A stretch of DNA of 45,106 nt, from positions 1 to 45,106 of the forward strand of contig JBFMGX010000036.1 in assembly GCA_040752595.1 (NCBI GenBank), written 5' to 3'. Positions within the stretch are counted from its first letter, which is position 1. The number at the start of each line of letters is the position of its first letter. The position numbers and the translations under genes are program-made. Below, piece by piece: positions 13,013-45,099 of the stretch. The notes below the pieces were generated by a model, which did no database searches, was not told the origin of the DNA, and was given only the letters and a program-made list of their open reading frames with translations. Source of the stretch: Candidatus Zixiibacteriota bacterium. Its GTDB lineage: Bacteria > Zixibacteria > MSB-5A5 > WJJR01.

Positions 13013-13030
13013 GCAAGAGACGCCAAGCGT

Positions 13031-13109
13031 GGCAGGGCGAAGCTCCTGCTGAGCCGTTGTTCGTCTTCGTAGACAGGACACGGCGGCTCGGCGGGAGCCT
13101 CGCCCTCCC
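13031..13109. repeat. 26-base imperfect inverted repeat upstream of the selenoprotein gene
   Basis: Arms 13031-13056 and 13084-13109 pair with four mismatches or G-U-type differences and flank a 27-base loop. The element ends 46 bases before the selenoprotein start codon. It may be a repeat-family member or part of the leader; the sequence does not decide. Confidence 0.6.
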
Positions 13110-13155
13110 GATACCATGAAAGGTTGAACCGTCACACGTCCATAGGAGGAACCGC

Positions 13156-13377
13156 ATGGCCAAGAAGATCACCATAAAGTACTGCAACGAGTGAAACTAT
13201 CAGCCCCGGGCTGCCAGTCTGGCGGCCGAGATCAAGGACCGGCTCCAGATCGATCCCGAGTTGATTCCCGGTTCCGGAGGGGTTTTTGACGTCAAAGTCG
13301 ACGGCCGGCTGATCTTCTCCAAGGCCGTGGCCGGACGATTCCCGGAAACGGCGGAGATTCTGGACGCTATCAAATGA
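13156..13377 (+). CDS. SelW/Rdx-type selenoprotein with in-frame TGA (Sec13)
   Basis: AGGAGGA (13144-13150) precedes the ATG at 13156 by five bases. The frame reads MAKKITIKYCNE, then TGA (13192-13194), then NYQPRAASLAAEIKDRL, and continues to a normal TGA at 13375-13377: 73 residues in all. This is the complete Rdx/SelW family pattern: strand, Tyr-Cys-x-x-Sec redox motif (Cys10, Sec13), NYxPRAxxL helix, a GGVFDVKVDG-LIFSK hairpin and a short C-terminal helix. SelW proteins have a thioredoxin-like fold and are thought to act as small thiol oxidoreductases. An SECIS-like hairpin follows the TGA. A nonsense mutation is the alternative, but the perfect motif position argues for selenocysteine. 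The squalene/phytoene synthase gene follows after 16 bases. Confidence 0.88.
13209..13227 (+). promoter_or_regulatory. Bacterial SECIS-like stem-loop
   Basis: An 8-bp stem (13209-13216 with 13220-13227, one G-U pair) closes a 3-base loop GTC at 13217-13219. The loop begins 22 bases after the TGA codon and its first base is G. Published bacterial SECIS models ask for a hairpin inside the coding region about 16-37 bases after UGA with a G near the start of the loop, and this fits. It would recruit SelB with Sec-tRNA during translation. Confidence 0.7.
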
Positions 13378-13393
13378 GGGTGCGCCCATCAGC

Positions 13394-14314
13394 ATGCCGA
13401 CCGTGAGTACCAACGCGCAACTCGTCGACGCCTACAATCTGTGCGAGGAGGTTGCAGGCCGCGACAAGCCGCACCTGTACGCGGCGGCCCAGTCGTTCGC
13501 CTGGCCCGAGACACGCCGCGCCTTCGCCGCCACCTATGCCTCGATGCGCGTCATTGACGACTTCATCGATGACATCCCGCACCGTGCCACAATCGCCGCA
13601 TCCTCACGTGCTGGGGCCGCCCGGTACCTCGATGATTGGCTGGCGCGGGTCCGGCAGGCCCAATCCGGGACGCACGACTCTCCGGGCATTTGGGCGGCGC
13701 TCGCTGACACATTCGGGCGCTTCGAATTGCCGATGACACCGTGGGAGGAACTCGGCCGGGCGATGCGCAGCGACCTGACAACACCGGCGTTTCGTGACTG
13801 GGACCATCTGCGCGGATACATGGCCGGAGCCTCGGTGGCACCGGCCGTCGTATTCATGCACCTGGTGCTCATGCAGCCGCAGATCGATCACACCGATGGC
13901 CGCTTTCGCTCCCCCTGGCCCTACGAGCGCGTCGTCGACGCCGCTGAGGACCTGGCCATCTTCTGTTACTGGGTCCACATCCTGCGCGATGTCGCCACCG
14001 ATCTGACACAAGGCGGCAGCGGCCTGGTGTATCTCCCACAAGATGACCTCCGACGATTCGGCCTGTCGGTTGCCGATCTGCATCGCATGCGCGCCGCCAA
14101 CGCGGCGACCGAATCGTACCGACAACTGGCCCGGTATGAGGCGGAGCGAGCCAGAGACCACCTCCGACGGGGTCGCGCCCATTTACCCGAGCTTCTCGCA
14201 GTCGCCCCTGCAGGCAACGCACAGGCGCTGACCCGGCTCGTGGACACCTATGTCGCTGTCTTGCAGGGCCTTGTCGACATCGACTTCGATGTCTTCGCCA
14301 CCGCTACGACCTGA
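13394..14314 (+). CDS. Squalene/phytoene synthase family protein
   Basis: The 306-residue all-helical prenyl-condensing enzyme has both Asp-rich metal sites: DDFIDD (55-60) and RDVATD (198-203). It also has the GYMAGASVAP segment (141-150) and the YLPQDDLRRFG motif (213-223) that follow them in squalene and phytoene synthases. Members join two farnesyl or geranylgeranyl diphosphates head to head, or make presqualene/hydroxysqualene in the HpnC/HpnD hopanoid route. The product cannot be fixed without a tree. No other carotenoid or hopanoid gene is in view. It probably shares a transcript with the selenoprotein gene 16 bases upstream. Confidence 0.88.
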   Translation: MPTVSTNAQLVDAYNLCEEVAGRDKPHLYAAAQSFAWPETRRAFAATYASMRVIDDFIDDIPHRATIAASSRAGAARYLDDWLARVRQAQSGTHDSPGIWAALADTFGRFELPMTPWEELGRAMRSDLTTPAFRDWDHLRGYMAGASVAPAVVFMHLVLMQPQIDHTDGRFRSPWPYERVVDAAEDLAIFCYWVHILRDVATDLTQGGSGLVYLPQDDLRRFGLSVADLHRMRAANAATESYRQLARYEAERARDHLRRGRAHLPELLAVAPAGNAQALTRLVDTYVAVLQGLVDIDFDVFATATT

Positions 14315-22561: not shown

Positions 22562-24289
22562 TTACGCCTTTTCTCCGCCGTTCGGGGCGCACTCGTTGTC
22601 TTCGCGGCGGCAACGGATGCGTGCGCGCTCATCGGCGATCACGCGCGTATCCGCGCCACAAGCGGACAAGACACGCGCGGCCACTTCGACCGCCGCCTCG
22701 AGTTCCGCGGGGACAACATCGGTCGCCCCCGCCTGCAAAAGCGCATCGATCTCAGCCAGATAGCGCGTGCGCACCAGAATGGGCAGCGTGGGGGTCGCTT
22801 GCCGTGCCCGACGGATGGCTGTGGCCGCCGCCGCCGGGTCATTGACAAGCAAGACCATCATGCGCGCCGAGTGAATCCCCAGATGTTCCAGAAGCTCCAG
22901 GCTGGTGACGTCCCCGTAGATAATCGGCTCGCCGGCCGGCGCGGCCGTGCGCACGGTCTGCGGATTCAGATCGGCGACGACATATGGAATGCCGGCGGCC
23001 TTCAATGCGGCACCGAGTTCCTGGCCGGCGACACCCCATCCGGCAATGATGATGTGGTCGTGGCGCGCATCCGCTGCCCCAGAGGACCCCGGTATCTGCG
23101 TGCCACGAAACATCCGGCGGAGAAGACCAACACGTGCGGCAGACTCCGCCAAACGCGGTGCCAGTCGCATCAGGAACGGCGTCACGATCATCGACAGGAT
23201 GATGGCCATCAGAAACGGCTCCCGGAACCTGAGCGCCACCAGGTCGGTGCCTTCCGCCGCCCGGTAGAGGACAAAGGAGAATTCGCCCACTTGGGCCAGC
23301 GTGATTCCGGCCATCACGGACGTGCGCAAAGGCAGACGCATCACCCACGATGTGAGCATCACGATCACGAACTTCCCGCAGAGGATCATCGCCAGTAGGG
23401 CGACGATCGCCCCAAAATCACGGGCGGCCAGACGGGGATCCAACAACATCCCGACGGAGATGAAGAAGACACTGGACAGCACGTCACGAAACGGGACGAG
23501 TTCGGCCATGGCCTGATGGCGATAGTCGCTCCCGGCGACGATCAGCCCCGCCAGAAACGCCCCGAGCGCGAGTGACACTCCCGCCAGCGTGGCCAGCCAA
23601 GCGGTGCCGATGCAAACCAGAAGCGCGGTCAGAATGAACAACTCACGCTGACGCGTCCCGGCGACCCAGTGCAGTAAGCGCGGCACAACCAGGTGCGCGG
23701 CCGCCAGGATCAGAAGCAGGGCGCCGATGCTGATGACGGCGGCCATCCAAAACCACGATCCGGCCGCCGTCGTCCCGGCTAGAAACGGGATCGCCAGCAT
23801 CACCGGTACCAACAACAGGTCCTGGAAGAAGCAGATGCCGATGGCCAGACGCCCATGGGGAGCATCCAACTCATCCTGTTGCTGCAGTCCGCGCAGGATG
23901 ATCGCCGTGCTGGACAGAGAAACGATGATGCCCAGCAAGAATGCCTGCTGGAAGGAGATTCCCTGCAGCGGGGCGGAAAGCAGGACGGCGACGACCGTGA
24001 TCCCGACTTGCAGCGTTCCCCCGATGAGAATCACCCGCCACAACCGGCGAAACCGGTCCAACGACAACTCCAGACCGATCCCAAACAGCAGGAGCGCGAC
24101 CCCGATGTCGGCCATCAGAGTCACCTGGTCTACGTCTCCGATCAGGCCCAGACCGCGCGGACCGACCAGAGTCCCCACGAGAATGAACCCGGCGATCGCC
24201 GGGATGCCAAGATGGCGCAGCAAAGAGACGACGAGGACCGCGGCCGTCAGAATGACCGCCAAGTCACGGAGAATGACGAGGTCGTGCAT
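22562..24289 (-). CDS. CPA2-family monovalent cation/proton antiporter with RCK domain (KefB/KefC-like)
   Basis: This 575-residue inner-membrane protein has about 12 transmembrane helices (1-380) of the Na+/H+ exchanger fold. The FFQD segment carries the ion-binding Asp157. A cytosolic TrkA-N/RCK domain follows with the nucleotide-binding GWGVAGQE (417-424). It probably exports K+ or Na+ in exchange for protons under nucleotide control. No ancillary KefF/KefG gene is adjacent. It starts 12 bases after the inositol-monophosphatase-like gene, so they are probably cotranscribed, possibly with coupling to a phosphatase that is itself cation-sensitive (inference). Confidence 0.93.
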   Translation of the reverse strand: MHDLVILRDLAVILTAAVLVVSLLRHLGIPAIAGFILVGTLVGPRGLGLIGDVDQVTLMADIGVALLLFGIGLELSLDRFRRLWRVILIGGTLQVGITVVAVLLSAPLQGISFQQAFLLGIIVSLSSTAIILRGLQQQDELDAPHGRLAIGICFFQDLLLVPVMLAIPFLAGTTAAGSWFWMAAVISIGALLLILAAAHLVVPRLLHWVAGTRQRELFILTALLVCIGTAWLATLAGVSLALGAFLAGLIVAGSDYRHQAMAELVPFRDVLSSVFFISVGMLLDPRLAARDFGAIVALLAMILCGKFVIVMLTSWVMRLPLRTSVMAGITLAQVGEFSFVLYRAAEGTDLVALRFREPFLMAIILSMIVTPFLMRLAPRLAESAARVGLLRRMFRGTQIPGSSGAADARHDHIIIAGWGVAGQELGAALKAAGIPYVVADLNPQTVRTAAPAGEPIIYGDVTSLELLEHLGIHSARMMVLLVNDPAAAATAIRRARQATPTLPILVRTRYLAEIDALLQAGATDVVPAELEAAVEVAARVLSACGADTRVIADERARIRCRREDNECAPNGGEKA

Positions 24290-33325: not shown

Positions 33326-33420
33326 AAAAGCAGACCCCTCGCTCCGCTCGGGGTGACAGGAGGTCCCCCCGACTTTCAAGGTGGAGTTGTCGTTCCGAGC
33401 GAAGCGAGGAACCTGCTTTT
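33326..33420. repeat. Dispersed palindromic repeat, family A, in the rpoN-glpX gap
   Basis: GAAAAGCAGACCCCTC...GGGGTGACAGG is followed by GTCGTTCCGAGCGAAGCGAG...CCTGCTTTT. These are inverted relatives that can pair over about 30 bases. The 33283-33574 gap contains this and nothing else I can recognise. Confidence 0.75.
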
Positions 33421-43385: not shown

Positions 43386-43856
43386 TCACGCCGGACTCGG
43401 AATCGTCACAGTCCGCAGATCGCGGATTAGGCGTTCGAGTGCCTTCGTGTAGGCTTTGGGTTCGTGCCAGTGAGTGAAATCACCGATGTACTTTCGGGCA
43501 ACATCGGCTTGAAGCTCATGTTTCCACGAGAAGACTGCATCGTCTACGCGAATGGGGAAGAGGACTTCCTTGTTCTCTCTCTGCTCCTTCTGCAACGCCC
43601 GCTCGATCTCACGAACAACCGGCTCCGCCTTCAGCGAATGCTCGCTGCAAATGACGATCAGCTTATCGTAGAGCCGAATCGCTTCGTCCACGGACCGCAT
43701 CAACGTCTTGCCCCACGGCGCATCTTCCTTCCACCGCCAGCAGCGTACGCCTTTGGCCTGGAGGTCATCGTACAGCCGTTCGCTGAAGGTATCGTCTGCG
43801 TCATTGAATGAGATGAAGCAGGTGTATGAAGGTCGTTGAGTGACAATCACTCTCAC
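43386..43856 (-). CDS. TIR-domain protein (likely C-terminal half of a split pentapeptide-TIR protein)
   Basis: The 156-residue product, starting at GTG 43856 right after a TGA in the same frame, is a TIR domain. It has the entry strand YTCFISFNDADDTFSERLYDDL, the RCWRWKEDAPWG turn, and EHSLKAEPVVREIERAL. Glu83 occupies the position of the NADase catalytic glutamate, four residues after the usual Trp, which here is Pro79. In the family I know, an N-terminal pentapeptide region and a linker precede TIR in one chain. Here the pentapeptide ORF (43801-44202) overlaps in another frame, so it is a split gene, pseudogene or frameshifted protein. Confidence 0.8.
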   Translation of the reverse strand: MRVIVTQRPSYTCFISFNDADDTFSERLYDDLQAKGVRCWRWKEDAPWGKTLMRSVDEAIRLYDKLIVICSEHSLKAEPVVREIERALQKEQRENKEVLFPIRVDDAVFSWKHELQADVARKYIGDFTHWHEPKAYTKALERLIRDLRTVTIPSPA

Positions 43857-44202
43857 TCAAATCGGAGTCGACGAAGTCCGCGTACTCGAAGCGGGCACCA
43901 CCCAAGTGGGCACCTCGAAGATTGGCACGGTCTAGAGCACAATCATAGACGCGGGCGTAGTCGAGAGATGCCCCGCGTAGATCTGCCCCGGTCATGTACG
44001 TGGTTCCCAAGAAGACGTCACGCAGCACTGCATTTCGGAGGTCAGCTTTGACAAACGCCGGGCAGGAACCCAAGTCGGCAATTTGGATTCCGGACAGCTC
44101 TGCACCGGATAGATCGAACAGCACGTCGGGGTTTTGTCTTTTCCACTTCTCAATCGCCTCCTCCCCCTGCTTCACAATCCTTACATGCTCTGGATTCGCC
44201 AT
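43801..44202 (-). CDS. Pentapeptide-repeat protein (N-terminal half of a split pentapeptide-TIR protein)
   Basis: GAGG eight bases upstream supports the ATG. The 133-residue protein starts MANPEHVRIVKQGEEAIEKW, a recognisable beginning of TIR-linked pentapeptide proteins. It then runs through A(D/N)LxG-type repeats (DLSGAELSGI, ADLRNAVL, ADLRGASL, ANLRGAHL, ARFEYADF), forming a right-handed beta-helix. Its stop lies 56 bases inside the TIR frame. It begins nine bases after the Hint/DUF559 gene, so the three are probably cotranscribed. As a scaffold it would bind proteins or DNA; a free-standing role is not excluded. Confidence 0.75.
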   Translation of the reverse strand: MANPEHVRIVKQGEEAIEKWKRQNPDVLFDLSGAELSGIQIADLGSCPAFVKADLRNAVLRDVFLGTTYMTGADLRGASLDYARVYDCALDRANLRGAHLGGARFEYADFVDSDLSESDCHSTTFIHLLHLIQ

Positions 44203-44211
44203 GGCCTGACC

Positions 44212-45015
44212 TCACACTCTTCCGGGGTGCTTCGGCTCAACACCCGCCTGCACCGCGCACACTTCCGTCGACAGTGAATCGCGATTCTCAACCACAACTT
44301 CAGACACTTCGGCTTCGACCTGCTTCGACTCCACAACACTCAGAACCACTGCTGTTCGGTCAATCCCGAATAGTACGACATCGCCTTCACGGACATCCGC
44401 CGCTTTGATCCACTGCATCTGATCCGGCGCGACCGGCGGACAAGTGCACGCTGCACGGATCGCCTCGGCGACGGCATTGGCATCAGTGACGACTTGTGAC
44501 GCACTGAATCGTATCACCGTCAAGCCGATGGCGCGCATGAATTCATCACGGGCACGATCGTACCCCTGCTGACCAACCCCGGAATGCACGGCTGCGCCAT
44601 CAACTTCGACCACAAGGTTCGCCGCACGGCTGTAGAAATCGGCGATGTACGGACCGACCGAATGCTGCCGCCGGAACTTGACACCGAGTTGCTCACTACG
44701 CAGGCGCTTCCAGAGAATCCGTTCGGGCGGCGTCATCTCGCGACGGAGTCGTTGACGTCTCTCCAGACTGGACAACGGCGAGCCGCTCCAATCCATCTGG
44801 CCGCCCATTGTCCGTGGCGCCGGACGGCAGAGAACCTGATGGTCTGGCGTAAGCCAGAGCGTGGTCGGAGAGAGAGTGTGGCGAAGACCGATGACAGGAC
44901 CCTGGTAGCGTCGCTTCGTCACGCGAGCGACGGTCGCGGCCGTGCCAGCGGCGGTGCAGACGAAACCACCTGGGGCGAGGTCTTGGACGGGGATCAGGCG
45001 CGGTCTCTCGTGCAT
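44212..45015 (-). CDS. Intein-derived Hint domain with inserted DUF559 endonuclease, splice sites lost
   Basis: I take the ATG at 45015 (267 residues); a TTG start at 45048 would translate a repeat. Residues 8-63 resemble intein/Hint block A-B (IPVQDLAPGGFVCTAAG, RRYQGPVIGLRH and LTPDHQVL, 55-62). Residues 93-190 are a DUF559/Vsr-like endonuclease: MTPPERILWKRLR, IADFYSR (Asp126) and VVEVDGAAVH (Glu137). The Hint part resumes with WIKAADVREGDVV (202-214) and ends VSEVVVEN...STEVCAVQAG. There the intein C-terminus usually reads EVCAVHN; His-Asn is replaced by Gln256-Ala257. The N-terminal Cys is absent as well, and no extein is encoded upstream. It therefore should not splice. It may be a relic, or a nuclease in a module with the next two genes. 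Confidence 0.75.
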   Translation of the reverse strand: MHERPRLIPVQDLAPGGFVCTAAGTAATVARVTKRRYQGPVIGLRHTLSPTTLWLTPDHQVLCRPAPRTMGGQMDWSGSPLSSLERRQRLRREMTPPERILWKRLRSEQLGVKFRRQHSVGPYIADFYSRAANLVVEVDGAAVHSGVGQQGYDRARDEFMRAIGLTVIRFSASQVVTDANAVAEAIRAACTCPPVAPDQMQWIKAADVREGDVVLFGIDRTAVVLSVVESKQVEAEVSEVVVENRDSLSTEVCAVQAGVEPKHPGRV

Positions 45016-45021
45016 CGGCTT

Positions 45022-45099
45022 GTCCCCCACCCCGGCCCTCCCCGTCAACGGGGAGGGAGCATGGTTCTCCCCCCGTGGACGGGGGAGTTAGAGGGGGGG
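45022..45099. repeat. CCCTCCCCGT-type palindromic repeat at right edge
   Basis: CCCTCCCCGT pairs with ACGGGGAGGG around 45037-45058, followed by CTCCCCCCGTGGACGGGGGAG. It is related to the unit at 40275. It lies upstream of the Hint/DUF559 gene and leaves no room for an N-extein in this window. Confidence 0.65.

Follow-up and report, generated by a model that had tools for sequence, protein, structure and literature searches.

Bacterial SelW-like selenoproteins with a CxxU motif were recognized about 20 years ago. In the Sargasso Sea they outnumbered every other selenoprotein family, with 48 genes (PMC1088965); they are also present in sequenced bacteria (PMC1794560) and were again the top family in the GOS metagenomes, with 427 sequences (PMC2398784). 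The CxxU motif of SelW and an interaction with glutathione have also been noted (PMC1088965). The DNA analyzed here, a stretch of 45,106 nucleotides from a Candidatus Zixiibacteriota bacterium (the window), had been proposed in a sequence-only reading to carry a SelW-type gene interrupted by an in-frame TGA. The identity of the gene was borne out, and the surprise attached to it was overstated, since such proteins have long been described in bacteria (PMC1088965, PMC1794560, PMC2398784). The gene comprises the following features.

13144..13149, + strand: Shine-Dalgarno sequence AGGAGG, 6 nt upstream of the ATG, recognized from the sequence
13156..13377, + strand: coding sequence of a SelW/Rdx-family selenoprotein of 73 residues, above the curated cut-offs of PF10262 and NF041051
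13192..13194, + strand: in-frame TGA assigned to selenocysteine from TGA conservation in homologues; codon and residue 13, the second of the two redox positions in CxxU

The translation of 13156-13377 is MAKKITIKYCNE-U-NYQPRAASLAAEIKDRLQIDPELIPGSGGVFDVKVDGRLIFSKAVAGRFPETAEILDAIK, where U is the TGA. The Shine-Dalgarno sequence, the TGA, the motif YCNE-U-NYQPRA and the 60 further residues all lie where the sequence-only reading had placed them, and its claim that standard gene callers overlook the gene also stands: reading the TGA as a stop would truncate or miss it. For profile matching the selenocysteine was replaced by cysteine. The protein scored 74.3 bits against Pfam Rdx (PF10262, cut-off 22.6), 95.3 bits against the NCBIfam model SelTWH_Campy (NF041051, cut-off 88) and 58.8 bits against TIGR02174 (cut-off 34.2), confirming the proposed membership of the Rdx/SelW family above curated cut-offs and passing a curated NCBI (seleno)protein model. 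By sequence similarity it matched the solved Rdx/SelW-type structures 2FA8, 3DEX, 2OJL and 2P0G, and weakly the SelW structure 2NPB. The CxxU motif lies near the N terminus as YCNEU; in an alignment of 15 homologues both positions are invariantly Cys or Sec, and residue 13 corresponds in it to the redox Cys found in CxxC homologues.

The genome containing the window (2.94 Mb, 50 contigs) is estimated to be 100% complete, and the selenocysteine genes named in the sequence-only reading as the ones to look for were all found in it.

Contig C40, 59330-61189: selB, 299 bits, over the cut-off
Contig C40, 61345-62673: selA, 466 bits, over the cut-off
Contig C40, 62738-62831: tRNA-Sec (selC), 70.7 bits, over the cut-off; anticodon TCA according to ARAGORN
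Contig C34 of the same genome (G000), 22644-23567: selD (L010), 322 bits, over the cut-off, with an in-frame TGA of its own

The selB, selA and tRNA-Sec genes lie side by side, forming one cluster on contig C40. Absence of selB and tRNA-Sec from a complete genome, which had been named as evidence against a selenoprotein, is thus not what was observed. Across the phylum selB scored over its cut-off in 113 of 132 genomes. The selD gene of this genome is itself a selenoprotein gene, with TGA in a GG-U-AGK context followed by the hairpin GGTCC-GGT-GGACC (loop GGT), and TGA-containing selD is conserved in the genus and family.

A phylum-wide search for the Rdx family gave 26 matches in 25 of the 132 genomes. 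Exactly one in-frame TGA was present in 25 of these matches, in every case at the CxxU position, and none in the remaining one, which is a second copy in the close relative G128. Other groups contributed 11 named homologues, and 10 of these likewise carry the TGA at the CxxU position; the exception (L032, from a Gemmatimonas MAG) has a Cys codon instead. Nine of the genomes of these ten TGA-type homologues contained selA over the cut-off and one (G141) a partial selA, and selA gave no match in the genome of the Cys-type L032 (G142). When the codons after the TGA were compared with those of six relatives by the Nei-Gojobori method, dN was 0.15-0.41 and dS at least 1.05, with one comparison saturated. 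Since nonsynonymous change is so far below synonymous change, the frame beyond the TGA is translated and evolves under purifying selection.

These data bear on whether the locus is a decaying pseudogene, that is, a former CxxC Rdx gene that acquired a TGC-to-TGA nonsense mutation. The TGA does interrupt the frame, and CxxC homologues exist (L032 and L058), for which the sequence-only reading had suggested looking. On the other hand, 25 homologues in the phylum and 10 from other groups have their TGA at this very codon, and this, the strong purifying selection after it and the complete selenocysteine machinery of the genome all oppose decay. This explanation, refuted by the conserved TGA and the conserved downstream frame, has a negligible probability. 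The CxxC-type L058 (G128:C74), the second Rdx copy of the close relative, is nearer to the Atu0228 type (TQCRWLLRA). In another homologue (L053, G012:C26), the TGA-type Rdx frame starting at locus position 1501 is open for 344 residues and includes a hydrophobic stretch and, toward the C terminus, a Cys-rich part, the Pfam match being confined to the Rdx part; its product is possibly a membrane-anchored fusion.

One relative of the same genus, G128, appeared exceptional: it has a TGA-type Rdx gene and a selD with TGA, and neither selA nor selB scored over the cut-off. The glycosyltransferase gene beside selABC has counterparts with 63-83% identity in four other relatives, always on the contig of selB, and G128 has no close match to it (best at most 35% identity). 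Since this syntenic neighbor is missing as well, the selABC region is probably absent from the G128 assembly, indicating that an assembly gap is likely rather than gene loss. Loss of selenocysteine decoding in G128 was set aside on these grounds and because its selD retains a TGA.

The sequence-only reading had also described a hairpin after the TGA.

13209..13227, + strand: predicted bacterial SECIS hairpin, arms 13209-13216 and 13220-13227, apical loop GTC at 13217-13219

The sequence does contain the claimed 8-bp hairpin with its GTC loop; the 22 nt given for its start is the distance from the TGA to the loop, and the stem starts 14 nt after the TGA. The 30-nt stretch folds at -15.0 kcal/mol, which is ordinary (z -0.75): 22% of synonymous recodings fold no less stably, and 2% retain all eight pairs. 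Because this energy is unremarkable, the lone window hairpin is not evidence by itself, and it was compared in a gapless alignment of 35 sequences. RNAalifold by itself retained just four pairs close to the loop; the named 8-bp stem was therefore counted instead. In this alignment 81.8% of cells were paired, the covariation score was 0.250 and five of the eight pairs showed changes on both sides. None of 500 shuffles reached the observed value on any of the five measures, counts that are not probabilities, the alignment cells being drawn from related sequences. Sliding the partner by 1-3 columns lowered both pairing and covariation score, which peak at zero slide.

Nucleotide conservation is among the highest in the loop and upper stem although the encoded residue changes. 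The loop codon is AGT, GGT, AGG or CGT, so that the middle G is invariant and the encoded residue varies between Ser, Gly and Arg; all 22 serines at this position are encoded by AGT, a codon used for 11 of the 131 serines at other positions of these genes. With the 22-nt spacing, the geometry agrees with all four published constraints on bacterial SECIS elements (PMC13188914). It could still be supposed that the gene is real and that some other element or a longer structure directs insertion, given that pairs 18-36, 19-35 and 22-32 fail to form in many sequences, leaving only the upper stem and loop consistently kept, and that the single-sequence energy is ordinary. Conservation of the loop and upper stem despite residue change and the agreement in geometry make this very unlikely. 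By sequence comparison the 13209-13227 hairpin, which fits the bacterial constraints and covaries, is a predicted bacterial SECIS, the evidence across the 35 sequences being decisive. A SECIS model scored 61.3 bits at the window hairpin, whose sequence is part of the model, and 19.2 bits at the next best site in the genome. This whole-genome scan found no further convincing element and missed that of the genome's own selD, the model being too short and too Rdx-specific for the whole selenoproteome. No Rfam family scored above its cut-off over 13100-13400.

An in-frame UGA would likewise be open under readthrough or under reassignment to a different amino acid such as Trp. Against such a code stand the tRNA-Sec with anticodon TCA together with selA, selB and selD, the covarying hairpin and the alignment of the UGA with the redox Cys of CxxC homologues. 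In addition, the terminal stop of the window gene is also TGA (13375-13377), and TGA, TAA and TAG all occur as terminal stops among the homologues. Codon reassignment was rejected on conservation and machinery, and we regard it as scarcely credible. It is close to certain that 13156-13377 is a true selenoprotein gene of the bacterial SelW-like type (Rdx family), with selenocysteine insertion itself presumed from family knowledge.

On that knowledge, SelB bound to Sec-tRNA-Sec would recognize the SECIS hairpin just 3' of the in-frame UGA, and this complex would insert selenocysteine at the second position of CxxU. The product, judging from similarity to solved Rdx structures, would be a small thioredoxin-like redox protein. 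From family knowledge, including the CxxU motif and glutathione interaction of SelW (PMC1088965), it would most likely act as a thiol/selenol oxidoreductase through selenenylsulfide exchange with a low-molecular-weight thiol, plausibly bacillithiol here. Near the selABC cluster lie a BshC gene (PF10079), a PIG-L deacetylase gene and a glycosyltransferase gene, and because of this context bacillithiol is likely a cellular thiol of the organism and may be the partner of the protein.

The selenoprotein gene is followed by another gene on the same strand.

13394..14314, + strand: squalene/phytoene synthase-family gene (PF00494, 117.6 bits), 16 nt downstream of the selenoprotein gene

Its product scored below the HpnC, HpnD and CrtB cut-offs. 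Six relatives from the same family and order (G125, G126, G127, G128, G130 and G131) likewise have a gene of this kind after their Rdx gene. The 16-nt spacing and this synteny suggest that the two genes are probably co-transcribed; neither a promoter nor a terminator pattern was detected around the selenoprotein gene. A functional link between the two is speculation, and it is unlikely that, in this order, the SelW-like protein serves the neighboring squalene/phytoene synthase-family pathway as a dedicated redox partner, or shares its regulation, using bacillithiol as thiol co-substrate. Between an SDR gene and the selenoprotein gene there is a long, strong inverted repeat (13035-13107); the 95-nt stretch 13021-13115 folds at -62.4 kcal/mol. 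Since parts of this intergenic region recur in the window at 33326, 37398 and 40861 and on other contigs of the genome, it looks like a dispersed repeat family. Elsewhere in the window, on the - strand, a TIR-domain protein gene (PF13676, weak ThsB-like match) overlaps one for a pentapeptide-repeat protein at 43386-44202, possibly a defense or signaling pair, and a DUF559 (Vsr-like nuclease) domain was confirmed within the protein encoded at 44212-45048, whose flanks look intein/Hint-like by eye.

The biology of SelW-like selenoproteins is already known, and the finding is correct but ordinary. It confirms a gene liable to be shortened or overlooked by callers that treat TGA as a stop, in a phylum with selB this widespread, and the 35-sequence SECIS alignment and conserved UGA are of value for annotation, revealing where such genes get lost. 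Compared with eukaryotic SelW, SelT and SelH, the protein belongs to the same Rdx/thioredoxin-like family and shares CxxU, with its weak match to 2NPB; the eukaryotic SECIS lies in the 3' UTR, whereas the window hairpin is inside the coding region just after the UGA. The CxxC Rdx proteins (2FA8 Atu0228, L032 and L058) are of the same family, with Cys where the window protein has Sec. Described bacterial SelW-like proteins (PF10262, NF041051, TIGR02174) agree with the window protein in size, CxxU motif, Rdx profile, a SECIS shortly after the UGA and Sec-decoding hosts, and the gene differs from them only in its lineage and its neighborhood, with a squalene/phytoene synthase-like gene downstream in its order.
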